Shown: positions 10,517 to 23,216 of the stretch, piece by piece
Position numbering within the stretch: position 1 is the first letter of the stretch
Layout of the letters: each line of letters opens with the position of its first letter
Origin: Membranipora membranacea
Taxonomy: Eukaryota; Bryozoa; Gymnolaemata; Cheilostomatida; Membraniporidae
Reading direction: 5' to 3'
Assembly (NCBI GenBank): GCA_914767715.1
Contig: OU612073.1
Span: 17,732,001 to 17,796,000 of the forward strand
DNA length: 64,000 nt
The notes under the pieces: generated by a model
What the model saw: the letters and a program-made list of their open reading frames with translations, nothing else
Told to the model about the DNA's origin: nothing
Database searches by the model: none
Made by a program: the position numbers and the translations under genes

Positions 10517-13500
10517 CTAATCATCTCCAAGTAAATCATCAAAATCTACATTCTGCAAACAAACAATGGATAATCATGAGGATGTAGCTAAACATACAGC
10601 GCTAGAATCTGTAGAACAACATAACTGAACTATTAAACATTACACGACAGCCCAGCTATGACAGTAACAATGAAGGGACCAACTGTTTGCCCCTTCATGG
10701 TTACAGTTGTGAGGGGACGTTCACTATTAAAGACAGTAAATTGCCAACAGTTGAATTGGTCCATGCGTTCTGTTATGCTGGTTCAACTTCTGGATTAATC
10801 CGACAATAGGTAGAAATCTGAAGTTTAAAGCTGCCCTATGGAGGCCAACACCACATTGCTCTCAGTTAGATGGCAGCTTGTAACTAATGTCCAGAGCACC
10901 AATAGAATGGCGTCGTCAGCAGACTACATAGTAAATTACTCCAGGACCTCCCAACACTCGCCTATTCTCTAACAGACTGATTCAACTCCTACTCCAAATT
11001 AGCTGTAATTCTCAATACTCAAACCAATAAAAATCATAAGTAAAATCACAAAATAACGCTGGAGGATGACTTACCGATGTGTCTATATTTTCATCTATCT
11101 TCATATTTTCCAGGTCTAGTTCTAGTTCATCTTCTAGTTGTTGTGTGGTGGTGGTGGTGGGGGCTGTAGGGGGTGGTGCTTTAGCCTCAGGAGGCGGAGA
11201 TTTACTTTCAGGTGGTTGACTTGGAGGGGGTTGTGTAGATTGAGTAGACGTCACCGGGTCACCTAATCCCAGCAGATCATCTGTCTCACCCGCCGCAGCC
11301 TGGATAAAAAAATAACATTCATTGTATAACAACAGGCCAAGCTAACCATATTCCGTCACTAGGACTGTAACCTGGAATTCCCAGGAAGTCAAGGATAAAG
11401 TCACCCCCTTGAAGTAACTGGGAATTCTGGTAAATTGCATTGTGGGATACTCCTCTATCTATTGTGCCCTATAGAAGATTTGTCCATCTATTAGTACTAA
11501 GCTTATTCAAGTGGATGGAGCTATATACATTTTTCTGCTGATGGGACAGTGAACTGTACAGAGTATTCTAATCGCAGCACATTTTCAGAAGCCAAAAATA
11601 TGAAACAGACAACTCAGTCCTACATCAGACGTGAGTATACATAGAAATATCAAATGTAACTTCTAGAAGAGAAGTCAGATACAGAGTAAATATCACCAGA
11701 CCGACCTGTGGTTTGTTGTCAGCAGCGACAGCTCCTGGAGCAGCATCTGATGATGTATCAGCTGCCGGGTTAAATCTACCTGATGTCGTGGCTTCTTCTA
11801 ATTCTTCCTCTACGTTACGCTCTGAGTTAATCTGCAAATCAGTAAATACGATAATTATCTGATTATATTTATTGCATTCATTAACCAAGCCTTTAAACAC
11901 AATTGATATTCATGTTGTACACAATGTTGTTGTGCAGTGGTAGGAAATCAGACAGAAATCCTAATCTCCCTATCCTGCCAATATTTTATCTAGCGCTGTG
12001 CCTAGTGACTTCTATACTGAAGTCAACCAGCTGCTCACAATGCAGAATACAGGTTTCAGTACAATATTATGTATCCACAGTAAGTTATAAGAAAACTAGT
12101 AGGTGAAGTTGGGCTTTAACTCAAAAGTAGAGAGTTTATGCTGCCTAATTGCTCTGGCCTCAAATAACGCTTCTTTTTGTGTGAAGGCCAACCCTAGCAT
12201 TTTGAGGAAGTATTGACATAGCGTGGGGATGTGATTACAACCGTTTAAATCAATAGGAACCCCCACTCCCATTGTTTTGGCGCAAAAACAAAGAGTCGAA
12301 CACAAGGAAGTGTATAACAATCAGAGCTCAGATAACTACACAGATAAACATTAGGAACAACATGTCTGGCTGCTTCAGGTCCAATAGGGTATGGTATATA
12401 ATAAATAAGCATGAGTTCTACACTGAGCACTCACAGTGAGAGTAGGGAAGGCGCGAGCAGGGAGCCGTCTTTTCCTCTCTTGTGTCAGATATTTCTCCGT
12501 AGTCTCAGATTCCTTCAGCCCAGGGAACAGATTATCGTACTCCGCAGGATCAGCCAGAGTAGCTGCAAGCTTAGGATGATTCTCAGCTACGCTTTCCTTC
12601 CACAACTTTGATACTCTACGAGATAAAAAGTAAATATTGTCCGATGTGCTTCGTTTGGACATGGGGAGAGAAATTGCAATTCTCATAGCATAAGATCAAA
12701 AATGATGCTTTGAAGCGTAAACCATTTAAATGAATGCGATCAATAAGTGACCTTTTCTTTGAGGAATCTATATCACAGGAGGAGACAACTTCTAGTTTTA
12801 TTCTAACTTGCAGGGTGGAGAGATCAAAACATTTCATGGAATTCTTTTCTGCTCCTTGGGTACCCCTTGGGTGCGCTATATGCACGTTGCTTTTCAATAG
12901 TTAACAGTTTTATGTAGTTTTTGTAATGATTTCACTATCTGAGGTTTTGCTCTCTGCATGAATTCTCAGCTTCATCGTCCTTAGTACTACATTTTTCATG
13001 CAAGTGCTTGCATCAAATCTGATATTTGATATTTAAAAACCTTGAGGACAGAATGTCATTGGTCTGAAGGTTACTGTTCCCAGATAAGATGGTATTGATA
13101 GCAGCGGATAAAATTTCTTGCTAATAAAAGTCTTGGAGGCCCTACTGCAAATGGAGTCAAATTTTATATGAGTTCTCCAATACATTTAATTTCATATTTT
13201 CAACTCAAACATATTCAAATACTGCTGCCCAGAACTAATTAATTTTGCCTGAAACATGATGTTTCTATCCATATGATAGTTGGTCGACCGAGTTGATGAC
13301 CGCCTTGACCACGGCCTTGAGCTCTCGGATCTTCTTCAAACAGACCCTATCACGACCCGTGACAAGCAATCCCGAGACGTTCAAACAAGCGAGCATTCCT
13401 CAGACATAAAATTATGTCGATATCTTTCTCGCTACCATTATGAGGATGACAAATGTCAATAGATAGTAGATAAGCGAAGATACGGTTCATATGTAAATCT

Positions 13501-16500
13501 CAAAGTCTAATTGCTGTTGGTAAATTACTCATTTTGTGTTCATCAATGTTTTGCATGTTCGATGATGCTGTAAGCGCCCAAAGGTTCGGGTCGCATGCAC
13601 TGTTTGAAGTTCAGTCAGTACAAAAATTTGGTTGTGATAATCAATATCTTACCGAGATGTGCATGCGATTTTTGACCCCATTTAATCAAACGAGGCCGTC
13701 ATTTTCCTAGTTATCTCTAGTGAATGGTCTTTTTCATTGCAGTATTTTCCCAATCTCATAAGATGAGGCCCCTAATGATATGGGCAGACGATGAACCTTT
13801 ATATTTAGATAAAGGAACGTAGTAGCCTAGGATTTTCCAGTTTTTGAGGTATGGAACCCCCAGAGACATACAGAGCCATACAATTTTTTTCTTGTCCTAC
13901 TACTTGACCCATGACGTTAATATTTCATTATCATTTTATCATATCTGCTGATTGTTGCAGCAGAGCGCCATAGACAGATGAGTCCCATAATCGCAGCTGG
14001 TCCATGTCTTACTTAGATCAACCATGTTCCAATTTGTCTGCATTTAGATTTTGAGCCACCGGTAGAATGAGAATGAGAATGATTGGACTGCGGGCTAATT
14101 GGATTAAGCTGGGTCTATGTCTCACCTAGATGTTTGACTAGGTAGATACGTTCTAGCAAAGAAAGCAGCCTCAGGGAGTCGTCCTGTGGTGATCAGTAAC
14201 TCGAGGCATTTCTCTGTCTCTCCCAACATGAAGTATGACAAGAATGATACATTATTATGTCCGGCATCTCGTGACATATCCGCCAGTTTACCAACCTGGA
14301 TAATGAAGACAAGTCTTGGTAACATGTTAAAAGAAACCTGCCTATTAAATTAGTAGGTGGAAGTATGTCATATAGTTTGATCAAGGAGTTAGAGTCTATA
14401 ACTCCTTGGTTTGATTAATTTCAATTTTTCGTTCATTCTGTATCACCTCTTTATGGAGAAGTGATAAAATATTACACATTTCTTGGATAAAGAAAGTACA
14501 ACTATTATTTTCGAACATATAGGCTATCACTTCACTGTTGAAAGTGGTGGTATAGTTATGATGTATTACATTGTGTTATTGTGCAGTGGTAGGAAACCAG
14601 GCACAGATCCTGATCTCCCTATCCTGCCAATGTATTATCTAGCGCTGTGCCTAGTGACCTAACTTCAAGCTTGAAGTCAACCAGCTGCTCACAATGCAAA
14701 GGTTCTCAAATTGTAGTCAATCAAAGTGCTTAAGGTTGCTCCTAGAATAGCCAACATCTTGAAAAGCAATTTAAAATTCAATGAATTAATTTCTCACCAT
14801 GTCGACATTTCCAGCCGATGTGGAGAGTAGAAGTAGACCTCCGAAGTCTTTAGCTCTCTGAAGAGCCTCCTGAGCCAAACCAAACTCTGATTTAGACAAG
14901 GCTAGATCAGCTAACTGTTTCCATTTTGTGTCCGTCTACAAAATTTAAGTGTATCATTAGCATTAGCCACACAGAGACAAATAGAAAGTTTCTAATCACA
15001 ACTGACAAAGAAAGCCTGCTTACTTATGTGGTTGACCATGCCAATCGACTAGATGCAAAGCCGAGGCAATTATATCGATAATGTACAAGTGTGATCAACA
15101 CAAAGTATCAGAAATTCCTTTGTTAGTGAATTGTCGGAAATTCAGCCTTTAGTTGGTGCTGTTTTCCTTCCGGTATGGTTCACTTTTATTTATCTAGCAC
15201 TGTGTCTAGAGGATTGACCGAATTGTCTCAGTCAACCAGCTAAACACAATGCAAACTTTCTTCTCTATCTCCCAACCTTGTTTACTAAATATGCTGGGCA
15301 AGATAAGTGATTTTTACAATTGACCAGAATATATTTTCGAGCTTCACTATGACATCATGAACAGTGAGCTGTACTCACATCTTCATCAGAGGCTATGCTG
15401 TAAGCTGTCTTCATATCGGCGAGCTGCAGAGCCAACTCAAACTTGTGTTCAGGGTCGCAGGTCACGGCCATCGCCTGTGGTTTAAATCCCTGCTTCTCAA
15501 GAAAATGTGCAACTCGGTTGCGCTGCTCTTTGGGTATTATAGGTAAGACCTGAAAACAAAGAATGTATAATATAATACAAGTTTGAAATAATTGATACAA
15601 TATAGTTCATAAACCGGAAGTTGCTTCACCATAGCAAAGGAGCAGACAACTCCAAGCAGCTTTTCTGATAACAACGCTAATCAAACAACTAGGTCCTCAA
15701 AACCCAAAATTATATACCCATTAGGTGGGAGGGCATTATGAAGCAACATATTCATATTATGATATTTTTATGTTACCGTGCAGTCGTAGAAAACAACACA
15801 AGTTATCTGATTTTCTTTGGTAATTGCCAATTTTTTTATCTAGCATTGTGCCTAGTGGCTCAACTACTTCATAAGGTGGAGTCAACCAGCTGCTCACAAC
15901 GCATGTTCATCATCGAATCAGTATATATATATACATTAAGCAGTACACTACATGGGTTAAAATGGTAGTGTGTACGGAATCACTTAAGTTAGTAATTGTT
16001 CCTAATTGCTCTACTCCAGTAAAAGTCTCTACTACAGTAAAAGTCTCTACTACAGTAAAAATATGAAATCGCAGCTGGTATTTATACCTTGTCGGCTGTG
16101 TCAAAGTCTTTCCTCATGACAGCAGTTTGATATTCTAACACAGATAAAAGTAGTGAGTAGCTGACAATGTTCAGTTCTTTGTCTCCTAGGTATAGTCTGT
16201 TCTCTTTGGGTATATATCCTAATACATACATCACTCTGTCCAAATGAGCTATAATAATAAAGGGATTGAAGGTTAACGCTTTGTGAGTGTATCCACAATA
16301 TGGAATAGCGTTAATTTGAGATCAAAACGCATCAACACAAGATATAATGTAAGTGGCCAAGAAACATGAAACATTACTTATACATAATTATCTGTAATTG
16401 TGCAGAAGAAAGAAATCAGGAAGAAATCCTAATCTCCCTATCCTGCCAATACTTTATCTAGCGCTGTGCCTAGTAACTAAACTGCTATACCGAAGTCAGC

Positions 16501-19500
16501 CAGCTGCTCACAATGCAAGGGATTTAAACGCGATTCTAGCACATTACCTTATAGAATAAGCCAAAATTTCCAATACTCATTCAGGCATAGGACGTAGCTT
16601 TTCAAGGCAACTTCAGCCAAAATTTCAGGATACATCATTTATAAATGACCACATGGAGTTGCAGAGTACTGTATCCCTCAACTAGTGCAAATCTCATGTC
16701 ATCACTGTTATCCACTCATACATAATCTCTACTACTCTCCGAAGTGAGGAACATACCCATATATAAGGGATTATAAGTATAAAACACCAAAACCTACCTA
16801 TAGTGACTAGTTCACCTCCGACGTAATAATTGAGTCTGTTGACAGAGTTAGTGTAGATAAAACAATCACCGACCCAGCATCCTGTCTTCACTACCTCCTC
16901 CACTTCTCCTACAACCTGTTAAATAAAGTTAAAAAACAAACTTAATTTGAGGAGTTGTGCACTCGCATTCATAAACTAATTAAGCGCACACAACTCTTTA
17001 TGTTGACACTCAATCGTAAGCCCTGTTTTACACAAGCCTCGTTCATACTTCTCATTTCTATGATAAGGGTGTCTGTATAAATTACAATGTAATTGTGCAG
17101 TCGTAGAAAACCAGACGATGATCTAACTTTCTTTGGTAATTGCCAATATTTGCTCTAGCATTGTGCCTAGGGGCTAAACTTCGTTATATTGTGAAGTTAA
17201 CCAGCTGCTCACATTGCAAAAATTAAAAAGAAATTCATCCACAATAATGGTGGATGAGACGTGGGATGTGAGAAATATTACTAAGACCCTGAGTGTGATA
17301 ATTAGGCATTTTAATCATACTATAGTTGACAGTGTCCATGGATCATATGAACACCGTCAAACATAGTATTCAATGAAAACATTAGTTCAGATAGAAAGCC
17401 TCAGACACTTACCTCAAAGGCATCTTCGATACCATCAGGGGTCATAAGTTCAGGGTCAGACTTAGCAGCTTCCACAGCATCAGGGCAGTATTTGAGAATA
17501 AAGAATGATTCCTCTGTGGCTATGCAGACATGTTCTCCAGATTCTGACCACAGTACCTGAGCAAATCAATCAGACACCTTCAACCATGTGATACAATCTA
17601 GGCTTTTAGTCTTTTCAAATTAAAATGAAAAATGTAACAGACAAATCAACAGTAGAAATATCTTACTACATTTCAATTTTAATTGGAGCGCTTGAAATAT
17701 CAAACTATAGCTTCTAGTGGCAATTTAATTGAACTTGAGGAGTTGAGCAGGGTTAATCTTTTCGAGAGTAAGCCATTCTCACATATCACATACCTGTTTG
17801 GGTGCAATCTCTATTCTTCTGACAAGTTCTGTATTATCCCAGTCATAAAAAGCCAGACCTGATGGTGTTCTTACTCCGAGCATAGCTCCTCCATAAATAC
17901 CTGAGGAATTAAACAGACATACATGATGGGAAAAGTGGGACTCTCAGAGACAGGAAATACAAATGATTTATCTCATTCTATGCAAATTTATTTTTATTGT
18001 CATTGTGCAGTGGTAGGAAATCAGACAGAAATCCTGATCTCCCTATCCTGCCAATATTTAATCTAGCGCTTTACCTAGTGACTGACCTTCAAACTTGAAA
18101 TCAACCGGCTGCTCACAATGCAAAATTGTAGTGATTCAAATGCAAAAAAAATAGAACAACACATAATTTTTCTGGCTCATAAGTTGAGAATTTCGCATGT
18201 GTGCATGATCAGAGTGTACACATACCATTTTTTAGTCACAAAATAGGAGTTTGAACAATAAGTACCTTCTGCACCAAACTCTGGTTTGAATGAGCGGATC
18301 TCTTTGAAGTTTTTGAATAGTTTGACACTGGTGGTGCCTTCTCTGATGGCGTAAAGAGCAGAGTCGTTACTCCAGATAAACTCCTGGGCTGAACCAAAGC
18401 TTTTATTACGCAGCGCCATAGCTGTATATATTATATACTCTCCATCACCACAAACTGTCACAAATCTGCAGAGAAAAAGACGTAAACAATAGACAATCGT
18501 GCATCAAAAGTTCTAAAATGTTGACACCTAGACATCTGAAGCCCCATATGTAAATGTGACGTAAATTTATATGTGATATTTTCGACGTTTGGATATTGAG
18601 AGCCCCTTACTCAATGGGTGTACATGCTCAAGTTTTGAGGTCACTTCAATTTTAAGAGTAAAATGTTGGCCAGGCACACCTTATGAACAATGGTATTGTG
18701 TAACTATACACAACAATGTTACTGTGCAGTGGTAGGAAATCAGACAGAAATCCTGATCTCCCTATCCTGCCAATATTTTATCTAGCGCTGTGCCTAGTAA
18801 CTAAACTTCTATACGGAAGTCAACCAGCTGCTCACAATGCAATGGAAAGATTCTTCTCATGTGAATAAATCCTTATTTACAACTACATCAACACCCTTTA
18901 GTGATAAAAATTAAGTCTCTGTTCAGTAAATAATGTTTGAAACTATCCTAATGTCAGAGAACTGAGTCTCAACATGCAAATAGATTAGGATTGGCCCCTC
19001 TTATTCCTCCAATACCAGTAGACTTCAAAACAAACATTGAGATACACGCTATGACCTGACTATAATATCAGCTCACCTGCCGTTAGGGTTATGAGCGATA
19101 CTCTGAGGGTAGATCTCACAGCTGCCCATATCTTTGATAGCCAGTGGCAGCCTCTCACCGTCCTTGACCTCAGCGTCAGCTAGAGCCTTAATATTAGCCT
19201 GTTGTATCTCAGCATGCTTAGCCCAGATAATCTTACCTCCGGAGTCCATAGACATGGCTGGCTCCTCTCTACCCAGCTGTTAAAATACAAAAATTGCTAT
19301 ACATTATGATATATATATACATCTAATGTCTTACAATATAGTATTACTGACATCTAATGTCTTACAATATAGTACTGTTTCGGAACAAGGATATATATAT
19401 ATATCAAACTTCTTTTGCAAGACAGTAATAGAAAGTTTTGCCTACATCAAAATTTGCTGCCTGATTTAGATTTAATGATTACCAAATTATAGCCAGAAAG

Positions 19501-22500
19501 AAGCAGGAATGTTTAATTTATACTCAATACTGGGCTGCAAGTCTGTTAGAAAACAGATGCACATATATATCAACAGTAACATGATAACATGATTTTGAAC
19601 TTACAGAAATAACGATGCTGCCTTCATCATAACCTATTGCCACATTGTTACTTCCTTTCATACAGGTGATAGACCACGCCCTCTCCATCCCATAGTTCAG
19701 TGTGGACTCCAGTCTGTATGTGTTTGCATGCCATATCCGTGAAGTGCCTGTAAAAAATAAGAAAATAACCTCAATATCACAGCCATTAAGTTTTTTTTTT
19801 TACAAAGCAAACTAACTTAACAAGACACCAAGACAAGCTGCAAGATCTTGATGAGTAGCTGTTACTGTGGGTGCATAACAATGACAGACTGCCTTGCAAG
19901 AGCGTAAATACTGTTGGAAATGCACCAGCATTAAACTAACAATTGTCAAAGGAGGATAACACTCAAAGTTAATATGTACAGCAAGCTATGTTAGAGAGTG
20001 TCTGTCTAGTCATAACTCATACTGTGAAAATAGTCAATCACAATCACATTAGCTCACTTACCATCCTCGGACCCTGTAATGATGATCGGTAATTCTGGAT
20101 GGAATGCTACACAAGTAATGTTCTGTGCATGGCCTTCTAATGTCTGCACACATGTTTTGTTCTGTAAGAAACAAGATTTAATATGTCTGAGTATACCACA
20201 ATATAAGCATATAAGAATCAGAGCATGACAGTAATTCAACACTAACTACAACACTGAACCTGATTGTCATCCATGAGATTGAAAGAGAAGTCCTGTTGAT
20301 ATAGAGCCTCAATGCTAGTCATTCAGATTGTGTCTGTGATTCCAGTCATTATTTTGACTTGCTTAGTGAAGATATCAATATATCTCTGCTGGAAATTTCA
20401 AAGAGTTATCCTTTCTTACCTGATAATCCCAGATTTTGGAGGTTCTGTCATCAGCACCCGATATTAAATAAGGTTTGTCTCCACCTGAGTAGTAGTCTAA
20501 AGCGTTTACACCTTTCTCGTGGCCTTCTAGTGTGAAGTTTGGTACGGGTGATCCTAGTGACCATACCTGCAATCAGACCCAGCAAACAAGGATAATATTG
20601 AACTTGATGAGTTAATTGAGAGATACAAGGTCTAAGGTCTAAGCTGTAGTCCAAGGTGTAGAAGTAAAATGAGGAGCTTTATATACAGCCCACGAGATTT
20701 AGCAAGCATTGAATAAATACTCCTTTAGATTTTAGGGCGTTGCTGCAGCATTTTCATATGATCCCAGCTCGGTTCATTAAGCTATATATATAACATATCC
20801 AAAAATATATAGTTAACCAATAGACTATAAATAATAATTATTAATTCTATAATATTGCTAGCCCCAAATTAAAATACCTTTATAGTTTTGTCGAGCGATG
20901 CACTGGCAAATGTGTTATTGTCTTTAGGGTTGATTTTGATCTGCATCACATAATGTGTGTGACCTTCGAATACTTGTATGCAGGACCATTTCTTTTCCCA
21001 GTCCCACAGTTTGATGGTGGAGTCATCTAATAAAACATAAATACACAAATTACACCAATTCACAGACTGGTAAGCTTACATCAGTAGCTGCAGACGTTCA
21101 CCTCATCACTTCTGCAATACTCATATGAATGTCTGAACCAAAATAAGAATGGGCGTACATATCGGAGCTTATTTCAGGACTATGACACTATTGTTTATTG
21201 GTTTATGATTATATCAATGTGAACTGTTGGATGTTATTGCGCAGTCGTAGAAAATAAGACAGAACATCAGATTTTCTTTGGTAATTGCCAATATTTGCTC
21301 TAGCATTGTGCCTAGGGGCTAAACTTCGATATATTGTGAAGTCAACCAGCTGTTCACATTGCAAAAAATAGAACTTTTCATCCACGTATGGTGGATGAGG
21401 CTTGAAAAACAGGAATTAGATCCAGAGTTGGATATTTAGCCATTTTATCAAACATGAATATGTTGCTCAACTTCTTTGTGAACAGAGGTTAGCCAGCTGA
21501 TCAAAACACAATTGAGGGATTTCCATAAGTAATTACTGTTATGCTAAGCAATATTTGGTATTGGTGCAATATGTAAGCTTTGGAAACAGTTTCAAGAAAT
21601 AAATCCGACCAAGGGCTGTTTTAATTTAAAGATGATATTGTGCATCATCAGCAATTACATCAAATCAACCAGGTACCTGCATCTATGCAACTTATCAAAG
21701 AAAAGCAATGAGAAGCATTATTAACCATTACCATTCAAGGTGACACATAAATAGCCAACACAATAATGCCAACTCACCACTACTAGTAAGGATGTAAGGT
21801 TGTGTGGGGTGTACTGCGATGCTTCTTAGGTAATCACTATGCGCTTCAAAAGCATGAACTTTTTCCGATGTGTTGTAGTTGAATATTTTAACTTGCATGT
21901 CATCCTGGAATATAAGTATATTAAATTAAAGAAATATACAGACTGTGGCTATACTCGCGGGAGTATGACTACAAACAGAGTTGTCCTTGTTGACAGAAAT
22001 CATGATGCAATATTTGCCAACAAAATGCAGAGAGAACACAAGAGGTAATCATTTAAATAACCTGCTTTATCACAATGCTTAAATATCAATGCATCTAACT
22101 CACCGAGCCAGTAACAATCCAGTTCTTCCTGGTGATAAAACTGGCTGCTCTTACGGGTACATCATTTGCTACTTCAAATGTCTTGATCAGTGTCTGCAAT
22201 GAAAAAAAAAATGGCAAATGGTTAGGAGACTGCTTTATGTAATCACTAACATGTATAACCGTTGCAACCATTCTGTAGAAAGGTTTTGCATAAAGTAAGG
22301 TAATCACCAGCTGGTGTTTGGGCTGTACACCAAGCCCTCCCATCCGTAAATGATTATCTCTCAACTCAAATGGTAATGAAAAAAACCGTATGTAGGAGTG
22401 AATCAGTAATTCAGTAGATAAGAATATGATTAGTTTGCACAATAAAAAGGTTATGTTGCTGAAATCTCACCTGAGTTTCTATATTCCACACATGCACGTT

Positions 22501-23216
22501 TCCGTTATAGAGACTGACAAGCATCCATGGATAAGTTGGATGCAGATCTGTGCATTTTACTCGATCTGATCGAGCAGACACTCTCCGCTTCACGTCCAAC
22601 TTCAGCGGCTAAAACAATAATATACTTTGAGTACAGGGTACTAAATACATTTTGAAATTGCATACAAATTTATCAGATTCAGTTTGACTTTGAGTAGGCG
22701 ATCCGTCAGGAAGTGAGATAATAATTGTGTGACTTGATTGATATGGTAACAGCAGAACCAGTATGTATTCATCATGAGAGATTATCTTGGCATGTCCACC
22801 CATGATTTATTTGTTCTGTCAGTTTTAGTTAAGGGTGTGGTTGTTTATTAATCATTACTGGTCTCACTCACTGCATTGCTGCTGTGGAAGTGACAAGTCA
22901 AGTGTAAGCAATTCAAAACAATATGACCACAGCAAAGATTGAGCTGTTGCAGGGAGTAGCTGACTTTCTACTTTCCTTGCCCTTTTATTTGTCAGTATGA
23001 TGCTAAGTAGCATGCTGCCAATTTATCCTAACTGAACAGGCAAGGGTGATTCTCATGTTTTTACAGCAAAAAGAGGAAGCAAGCTTCAAAGACAAAAAAC
23101 AGAATGAAAAAATATTTTGGACCTAATCTTTCCCGGCAAACACAGTGCAATGTGGCTCGATCTTTCAACAAGTTATGCACATTGGCCAATTTTTCAGTTT
23201 TCATTAAACCTACCAT
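10517..23216 (-). CDS. COPB2: Coatomer subunit beta-prime (COPI coat), complete
   Basis: WD-repeat subunit of the COPI coat, acting in Golgi-to-ER and intra-Golgi transport and recognising dilysine cargo signals. Exons: 23216-23214 (ATG only), 22608-22471, 22193-22104, 21904-21778, 21026-20878, 20566-20420, 20161-20062, 19747-19605, 19276-19077, 18465-18266, 17900-17794, 17556-17413, 16915-16798, 16248-16088, 15549-15379, 14935-14798, 14295-14126, 12615-12435, 11831-11706, 11299-11075, 10552-10517. Every junction keeps phase, giving 957 residues against about 906 in human. Diagnostic blocks include [126 protein letters not shown] and [13 protein letters not shown]. The C-terminal tail (exon 11299-11075) is proline- and threonine-rich and accounts for most of the extra length. 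The stop follows FDDLLGDD. Nine introns carry an snoRNA-like element. Confidence 0.97.
11928..12043 (-). ncRNA. Candidate box H/ACA snoRNA, copy 1 (type A)
   Basis: Lies within the COPB2 intron 11832-12434, in the sense orientation. The 5' hairpin has the stem TGACTTC/GAAGTCA. Exactly 14 bases separate it from the hinge AGATAA (11991-11986). The 3' hairpin has the lower stem GCAG/CTGC and upper stem AG-capped pairing, followed at once by ACA (11933-11931) and three bases. This fits the H/ACA layout. A palindromic-ended transposon is the alternative. Confidence 0.6.
13280..13440 (-). other. GC-rich island with a 43-codon open frame inside a COPB2 intron
   Basis: Within the longest internal COPB2 intron (12616-14125) the composition changes abruptly. 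On the minus strand a frame reads about 43 codons with coding-like content, including [22 protein letters not shown] and INSVDQ, ending at a stop. It is not a COPB2 exon, because the flanking exons join in phase at the conserved [13 protein letters not shown] site. It may be a decayed insertion or chance. Confidence 0.25.
13996..14120. repeat. Degenerate fold-back element next to a COPB2 splice donor
   Basis: The left side (ACTTAGATCAACC, CCAATTTGTCTGCAT) and right side (GGACTGCGGGCTAATTGG, TCTATGTCTCACCTAGA) are imperfectly complementary. They resemble the arms of the fold-back at 6870-6995. The right end runs up to the donor of the COPB2 exon 14295-14126. Confidence 0.35.
14577..14698 (-). 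ncRNA. Candidate box H/ACA snoRNA, copy 2 (type A)
   Basis: In the COPB2 intron 14296-14797, sense. The apical stem is enlarged (ACTTCAAGCTTGAAGT) but TGAC/GTCA still closes it 14 bases before the hinge AGATAA (14640-14635). The 3' half is type A and ends CTGC-ACA, with ACA at 14582-14580. Confidence 0.6.
15129..15253 (-). ncRNA. Candidate box H/ACA snoRNA, copy 3 (type C, unique 3' hairpin)
   Basis: In the COPB2 intron 14936-15378, sense. The 5' half resembles the other copies, but the stem is TTGACTG/CGGTCAA, paired by different bases. The hinge is AGATAA (15195-15190). The 3' half is unrelated in sequence to types A and B. Yet it folds with upper stem CAGC/GCTG and lower stem CGGAA/TTCCG directly against ACA (15134-15132). 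Structure is conserved without sequence conservation here. Confidence 0.55.
15774..15903 (-). ncRNA. Candidate box H/ACA snoRNA, copy 4 (type B, ACA changed)
   Basis: In the COPB2 intron 15550-16087, sense. The hinge is AGATAA (15841-15836). The 3' half is type B with the stem AGAAAA/TTTTCT. The terminal triplet reads ACG instead of ACA, so this copy may be decaying or may not be processed. Confidence 0.4.
16000..16062. repeat. 19-bp tandem repeat near a COPB2 splice donor
   Basis: The unit CAGTAAAAGTCTCTACTA occurs two and a half times, ending about 25 bases from the donor of the COPB2 exon 16248-16088. Confidence 0.7.
16396..16517 (-). ncRNA. Candidate box H/ACA snoRNA, copy 5 (type A)
   Basis: In the COPB2 intron 16249-16797, sense. 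The hinge is AGATAA (16459-16454) and ACA lies at 16401-16399. TGAC pairs with GTTA (one wobble) at the same distance from the hinge as in copy 1. The 3' half is type A, with a change next to the terminal CTGC. Confidence 0.55.
17091..17218 (-). ncRNA. Candidate box H/ACA snoRNA, copy 6 (type B)
   Basis: In the COPB2 intron 16916-17412, sense. The hinge is AGAGCA (17156-17151), which differs from AGATAA but still fits ANANNA. The 5' apical stem is AACTTC/GAAGTT with a new loop. The 3' half is type B and ends CTGC-ACA (17096-17094). Confidence 0.55.
18001..18122 (-). ncRNA. Candidate box H/ACA snoRNA, copy 7 (type A)
   Basis: In the COPB2 intron 17901-18265, sense. The hinge is AGATTA (18064-18059), again fitting ANANNA. 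TGAT/GTCA closes the 5' stem. The 3' half is type A with ATCAG/CTGAT above and GCAG/CTGC below, then ACA (18006-18004). Confidence 0.6.
18720..18841 (-). ncRNA. Candidate box H/ACA snoRNA, copy 8 (type A)
   Basis: In the COPB2 intron 18466-19076, sense. The hinge is AGATAA (18783-18778) and ACA lies at 18725-18723. TGAC/GTTA closes the 5' stem at the conserved spacing, with GACTTC/GAAGTT inside. This copy is close to the type A consensus. Confidence 0.6.
19318..19378. repeat. Two-copy tandem repeat of about 29 bp in a COPB2 intron
   Basis: The unit ACATCTAATGTCTTACAATA followed by TAGTA occurs twice in a row within the COPB2 intron 19277-19604. A short AT microsatellite lies beside it. Confidence 0.7.
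21235..21363 (-). ncRNA. Candidate box H/ACA snoRNA, copy 9 (type B, ACA changed)
   Basis: In the COPB2 intron 21027-21777, sense. The hinge is AGAGCA (21301-21296). The 5' half has GACTTC/GAAGTT. The 3' half is type B with AGAAAAT/ATTTTCT. The terminal triplet is GCA instead of ACA. Similarity to copy 6 continues for about 90 bases on the 5' side of the RNA, so the two arose from a longer intronic duplication. Confidence 0.45.

Follow-up and report, generated by a model that had tools for sequence, protein, structure and literature searches.

In the introns of COPB2 of the bryozoan Membranipora membranacea, nine related elements were identified which very probably form a family of intron-encoded box H/ACA small nucleolar RNAs (snoRNAs). 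They lie within the window, i.e., the whole 64-kb stretch of DNA analyzed (contig C9, positions 17732001-17796000). The only place outside COPB2 at which relatives were found, in a search of 339,339,785 bases on 18 contigs, is a tandem array of decayed COPB2 duplicates on contig C11, which looks like a non-coding snoRNA host derived from a COPB2 duplicate. The family appears to be new but of a known kind; its expansion in a single gene is unusual, and it has an apparent daughter host gene. No description of an snoRNA set in COPB2 introns was found in the openly licensed literature on snoRNAs and COPB2 introns, and a full-text search of openly licensed papers returned no study of bryozoan snoRNAs.

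Nine elements in the introns of COPB2

The COPB2 gene of the window shows 89% identity to COPB2 of Bugula neritina and Watersipora subatra and at most 79% to others among the best 120 matches listed. Its last exons lie below position 12435. The elements E1 to E9 (11925-21362; Table 1) are all located on the minus strand. Since the COPB2 exons map to the same strand, they are in sense orientation, as the preliminary description of this DNA had claimed (P = 2^-8 for nine of nine in one orientation). The intact copies occupy nine different introns of about 18, for which length-weighted placement, based on manually entered intron lengths, gives P = 0.048. Measured from their first G up to the ACA, they are 119-132 nt long, and they lie about 85 to 279 nt from the 3′ splice site. 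On either flank, the copies no longer resemble each other above background beyond 3 nt from the element.

A covariance model was built from 14 copies including E1 to E9 (model R1) and gave nine matches in the window, with 71.8-134.9 bits. The next match reached 15.8 bits and lies on the plus strand over E1. As the model was trained on these nine copies, their recovery is expected by construction; what the search contributes is the absence of other strong copies in the window. The earlier claim of exactly one element per intron is valid for the intact copies, but intron 3 contains, upstream of E9, also a decayed tenth copy. In local alignments this copy scored 48 against E4, 42 against E8, 37 against E6, 33 against E9 and 23 against E3. 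These scores were reached by 0, 0, 0, 1, and 23 of 300 plain shuffles, respectively, so that it aligns above shuffles to four of the five copies compared.

Three kinds of elements can be distinguished in COPB2, namely type A (E1, E2, E5, E7, and E8), type B (E4, E6, and E9) and the divergent type C (E3). E6 and E9 have a common upstream flank (17218-17262 and 21363-21407) with a CATCCACC..GTGGATG inverted repeat; both therefore probably derive from a duplication larger than the element.

Table 1. Coordinates of COPB2, the intronic elements and the predicted guide arms in the window.
Feature	Position	Strand	Basis
COPB2 host gene, exons 1-17 as mapped	12435..22608	-	tblastn, human COPB2 query
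E1, type A, 5′ hairpin 5 nt shorter	11925..12043	-	R1 116.8 bits, alignment
E2, type A	14574..14697	-	R1 130.2 bits, alignment
E3, type C, divergent; 3′ half unlike the others, near-perfect hairpin in place of the 5′ pocket	15121..15252	-	R1 71.8 bits; fold z -7.5
E4, type B	15771..15902	-	R1 118.5 bits, alignment
E5, type A, right arm of 3′ guide changed	16393..16516	-	R1 121.3 bits, alignment
E6, type B	17088..17217	-	R1 122.8 bits, alignment
E7, type A	17998..18121	-	R1 122.2 bits, alignment
E8, type A, reference copy	18717..18840	-	R1 134.9 bits, alignment
E9, type B	21232..21362	-	R1 132.1 bits, alignment
Decayed tenth copy, intron 3 with E9, upstream of E9	21396..21509 (ends of a weak model match)	-	R1 9.9 bits, E 1.7
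Predicted 3′ guide left arm in E8, UUGGCAGGAU	18764..18773	-	target scan
Predicted 3′ guide right arm in E8, ACCACUG (ACCA pairs with target)	18727..18733	-	target scan

In the genome, DNA searches returned at least 13 places for a type A query (8 in COPB2, 5 on C11) and at least 11 for a type B query (6 in COPB2, 5 on C11), all on one strand. These counts are lower bounds and E3 was recovered by neither query, hence diverged relatives may exist elsewhere. As far as found, the relatives are confined to COPB2 and the array on C11, so the elements do not form a dispersed repeat. Hundreds of dispersed copies in both orientations, which the preliminary description had named as speaking against its reading, were thus not seen; the matches lie in the gene and in an array derived from it, in one orientation. 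Repeated insertion of a mobile element, either a short interspersed element (SINE) or a miniature inverted-repeat transposable element (MITE), into COPB2 would explain a repeated element with sharp ends. However, the restriction of the relatives found in 339 Mb to the gene and its decayed duplicates, their single orientation and the conservation of the element within those duplicates argue against it, and inspection of the flanks by eye revealed neither a poly(A) nor a target-site duplication in common. A mobile element is very improbable. A tRNA origin was rejected, with 0 tRNAs found in the window.

H/ACA-like anatomy and folding

The consensus order is a 5′ hairpin (an 8-bp lower stem, a pocket and an upper stem), a hinge, a 3′ hairpin and a tail ending in ACA. 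The hinge reads UAGAUAA, UAGAGCA or a near variant, and in type A the lower stem of the 3′ hairpin is AUUGgCAG/CUGcaCAAU. Fourteen copies were aligned, E1 to E9 and the five full-length copies of the array, leaving out its truncated third A copy. All 14 carry a hinge of the form ANANNA, in agreement with the preliminary description. The tail ACA that is conserved is not the one which it had named (in GCACAA) but lies one motif later, in CAAUaACA, and is present in 13 of the 14 copies (9/9 in COPB2, 4/5 in the array).

In H/ACA RNAs the pocket rule places 14-16 nt between the upper stem and the H or ACA box. Measured in fixed columns of the alignment from the consensus upper stems, this distance is 15 nt to the hinge in 14/14 copies and 14 nt to the ACA in 13/14, with 12 nt in E3. 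The rule is given in the preliminary description, whose counts of 14 and 13 bases for hinge and ACA had to be corrected to 15 and 14. E1, which lacks 5 nt, may deviate from the consensus pairing by one base. Twelve of the 14 copies keep CAGCU in the 5′ pocket, and twelve keep CUAGG; the target sequence predicted for this pocket is CCUAGU-UN-AGCUGCU. According to RNAalifold two bases pair across it (AG and CU), and a target would need to displace this pairing.

The two-hairpin consensus fold has z scores of -7.4 for the nine COPB2 copies, -6.4 for all 14, -6.2 for the 13 without E3, -5.6 for type A and -5.1 for type B, and in each of these five groupings none of 200 column shuffles folded as low. 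The antisense alignment folds worse (-8.84 vs -23.72 for the nine, -5.85 vs -18.72 for the 14). Paired cells make up 94.5% of 470, compared to 37-47% with the partners slid, in a structure derived from the same sequences. Covariation is clearest in the array copies p1_A and p2_A, where U-A replaces G-C in the lower 5′ stem. The alignment and the folding tests support the earlier hairpin-hinge-hairpin reading.

The elements could also be structured intronic sequences acting in cis on splicing or expression of COPB2 and not as free RNAs. This would agree with their occurrence in only COPB2 introns and in introns derived from these whose splice sites are kept. But about half of the COPB2 introns lack one, the distance to the 3′ splice site is variable, and the H/ACA boxes and their spacing would be left unexplained. 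Such a role in cis is highly improbable.

A set of intronic microRNA precursors was considered on account of E3, whose 5′ hairpin (15197-15252, minus strand) is an almost perfect, precursor-like hairpin of 23 bp (z -7.5). It resembles mir-34 at 19 of 22 bases, with two seed bases changed, and matches the Rfam family mir-34 with 29.3 bits (E 0.0037), below the gathering score of 53.4. An identity of E3 with mir-34 was rejected due to the sub-threshold score, the changed seed and the presence of a perfect mir-34 core on contig C1. Because this core adjoins sub-threshold matches to mir-277 and mir-317, E3 is not the mir-34 gene, and its likeness to mir-34 is most likely due to chance. Eight other places in the genome match the mir-34 core with three mismatches, as E3 does. 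The other eight copies in COPB2 have open pockets, a hinge and an ACA, which makes microRNA precursors a very unlikely explanation of the set. The search of the genome with the Rfam family mir-34 found nothing and is uninformative, since the perfect core was later found by pattern.

A cluster of mir-34, mir-277, and mir-317 is known from insects. On C1 at about 2.678 Mb (stretch-local 1460-1933), matches to these three families stand side by side on one strand, all of them sub-threshold.

A decayed duplicate of COPB2 and a predicted rRNA target

The array on C11 (about 15,433,450-15,441,600) consists of tandem, decayed duplicates of COPB2 exon 2 and exon 4, which keep their splice sites and between which lie conserved H/ACA-like elements. 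The duplicates lie at about 8.4-16.6 kb of a 30-kb stretch of C11, in which self-similarity extends to about 20.4 kb; no other COPB2 exons were found in it. Between the pseudo-exons lie copies of type B (three) and of type A (two full, one truncated). Identity of the pseudo-exons to COPB2 is 69-82% (94% in one 31-base piece), and three of nine translated array pieces contain stops. In the eight pseudo-exons read by eye (five copies of exon 4 and three of exon 2), AG and GT are kept at 16 of 16 splice sites, a count which leaves out the 31-base exon-2 match at C11-local 16615-16585.

The type A elements of units 1 and 2 agree at 121 of 123 positions (98.4%), compared to 521 of 635 in the homologous intron (82.0%; 76.6% over a shorter stretch; Fisher p 1.6e-7) and 124 of 153 in the pseudo-exon (81%; Fisher p 1.5e-6). 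For type B, the element pairs are identical at 115/129 (units 1 and 2) and 121/129 positions (units 1 and 3), with 230/283 and 330/433 in the respective introns. For units 1 and 3 the comparison gives p 2.3e-6 against the intron, 0.0005 against exon 4 and 0.0012 against exon 2. The pair of B2 and B3 (118/129; intron 49.7%) is partly non-homologous and was not used. The simplest reading is that selection in the array would act on the RNA and on splicing, not on a protein; type A speaks clearly for this, type B less so. Sequence features of a non-coding host gene were found here, namely exons without coding constraint together with kept splice sites and kept intronic elements.

The main alternative to selection is gene conversion limited to the elements. 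The likeness on C11 would then result from conversion or recent copying and the array would be a dead pseudogene, which is compatible with an H/ACA nature of the elements. The best element pairs with COPB2 are indeed 90-93% identical (E8/p1_A, E9/p1_B, and E9/p3_B; 85% for E9/p2_B), the similarity of E8 and p2_A extends about 100 nt beyond the element, and stops are found in only the three pieces mentioned. Furthermore, p2_B reads CCA in place of ACA, and of the third A copy only 56 nt are left; copies are thus being lost from the array as well. However, the compensatory stem change common to p1_A and p2_A is not seen in any of the nine COPB2 copies, the elements are far more alike between units than the homologous introns, and the splice sites are kept in the pseudo-exons read. 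This alternative is regarded as rather unlikely.

Possible targets were scanned for in the 18S and 5.8S rRNA, the first 971 nt of the 28S rRNA (the remainder of that stretch reads N) and the U2 snRNA of the species itself. The 3′ pocket of type A fits the start of the 18S rRNA. Its right arm ACCA pairs with UGGU (nt 5-8), U9 and G10 follow, and its left arm UUGGCAGGAU pairs with AUCCUGCCAG (nt 11-20), comprising nine Watson-Crick pairs and one G-U pair on the left and four Watson-Crick pairs on the right. The guide scores 33.7, whereas shuffled guides have a mean of 18.8 (sd 3.3, maximum 31.7) and 0 of 400 reach it. In a scan with shorter arms the same pocket ranked first among eight guide variants, and 2 of 300 shuffles attained its score. 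With the longer arms, the p2_A variant was reached by 1 of 400 shuffles and the other six variants by 63-321 of 400. These probabilities are optimistic, because the longer arms were chosen once the first result was known, and the variants are interdependent. Each arm is unchanged in six of seven full type A copies; the left-arm change in p2_A keeps a G-U pair, and the exception for the right arm is E5. Based on this complementarity, the type A 3′ pocket is predicted to guide a pseudouridine at 18S U9. We know of no report of a pseudouridine at this position, although no search for one was made. With human rRNAs and snRNAs as targets nothing above shuffles was found; another scan of human sequences, made without shuffles, began at nt 11 and was blind to U9.

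As to the loci of these target RNAs, 18S matches were found near several contig ends (C11 23,199,576-23,355,581, the first 67 kb of C10, and the starts of C6 and C3); the rDNA arrays are thus probably terminal. Part of one rDNA stretch reads N. On C6 (14,621,734-14,660,556), thirty matches to U2 are arranged in tandem, repeating about every 1.29 kb. No rRNA was found in the first 10 kb of C12 to C17 with Rfam, which returned one tRNA, nor by word probes of the loci covered by them.

Several observations weigh against an snoRNA family with a functional array and guide, in addition to the loss of copies described above. Covariation is modest, with five pairs showing two-sided changes, a number equaled in 69 of 500 shuffles. 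Single copies differ in their folding, with z scores of -7.5 for E3, of -1.4 to -3.8 for A copies and of -0.01 to -1.4 for B copies; it is weak in type B (-0.99, -1.39, and -0.01) and in E7 (-1.44). No Rfam snoRNA family reached its threshold, and the window contains 0 matches of any Rfam family at the gathering score. In the array, the type B elements of units 1 and 2 are only marginally more conserved than the intron (p 0.045) and show no excess over pseudo-exon 4 (p 0.15). No target above shuffles was found in the four target RNAs scanned for either the 5′ pocket or the 3′ pocket of type B. Finally, the left guide arm and the lower stem overlap, so that this stem would need to open in part; seven of the ten left-arm pairs could form with only its inner part open.

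Following established H/ACA biology, the COPB2 pre-mRNA would be spliced and the excised introns debranched. The H/ACA core proteins dyskerin, NOP10, NHP2, and GAR1 would shield a two-hairpin RNA (about 120-135 nt) from the exonucleases that trim the remainder. The type A 3′ pocket would then pair with 18S nt 5-8 and 11-20, allowing U9 to be converted to pseudouridine. The copies may have spread by local duplication between COPB2 introns. On C11, a partial tandem duplicate may have lost its coding capacity and kept its splice sites and RNAs. It is tentatively suggested that the array is a non-coding snoRNA host gene at its birth, maintained for splicing and for H/ACA RNAs of which type A would guide the modification of U9 near the 18S 5′ end, a reading that is possible rather than probable as a whole.

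If true, this would be a nine-copy H/ACA family within one coding gene, in Bryozoa. The origin of non-coding snoRNA host genes is an old question, and a coding parent, decayed tandem duplicates and common intronic RNAs in one genome make the route from coding gene to host gene directly testable. The type A guide offers with U9 a specific, testable site. Poly(A) RNA-seq of the species is named in PMC10290214 (ERR6464929).

Comparison with known snoRNA hosts and related RNAs

The COPB2 set resembles the intron-encoded box H/ACA snoRNAs of animals in the succession of hairpin, hinge, hairpin and tail, in the ANANNA hinge, the ACA tail and the spacing of 14-16 nt. It also resembles them in the sense orientation, the single intact copy per intron and the lack of a fixed distance to the splice site, and one study states that expressed H/ACA snoRNAs show no intronic preference (PMC10234308). 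In contrast to them, it fits no Rfam family and comprises nine related copies and a relic in one coding gene. For human H/ACA families, a share of only 7.3% with all expressed members in one host gene is given in another study (PMC8178906).

Non-coding snoRNA hosts of the GAS5 type are similar to the array on C11 in having decayed exons and conserved intronic RNAs. For GAS5, higher indel rates in exons than in introns are reported (PMC4739325). Unlike these hosts, the putative host on C11 has its protein-coding parent COPB2 in the same genome, which makes its origin directly readable.

E3, with its closed 5′ pocket and its resemblance to a precursor, is comparable to the human microRNA precursors with H/ACA features (PMC2730528), but it keeps both hinge and ACA. 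The array, as a decayed coding gene with a transcript-like structure, also recalls the long non-coding RNAs which are fossils of protein-coding genes (PMC5577775). As a difference, the terms 'snoRNA' and 'host gene' do not occur in the main text of that source.

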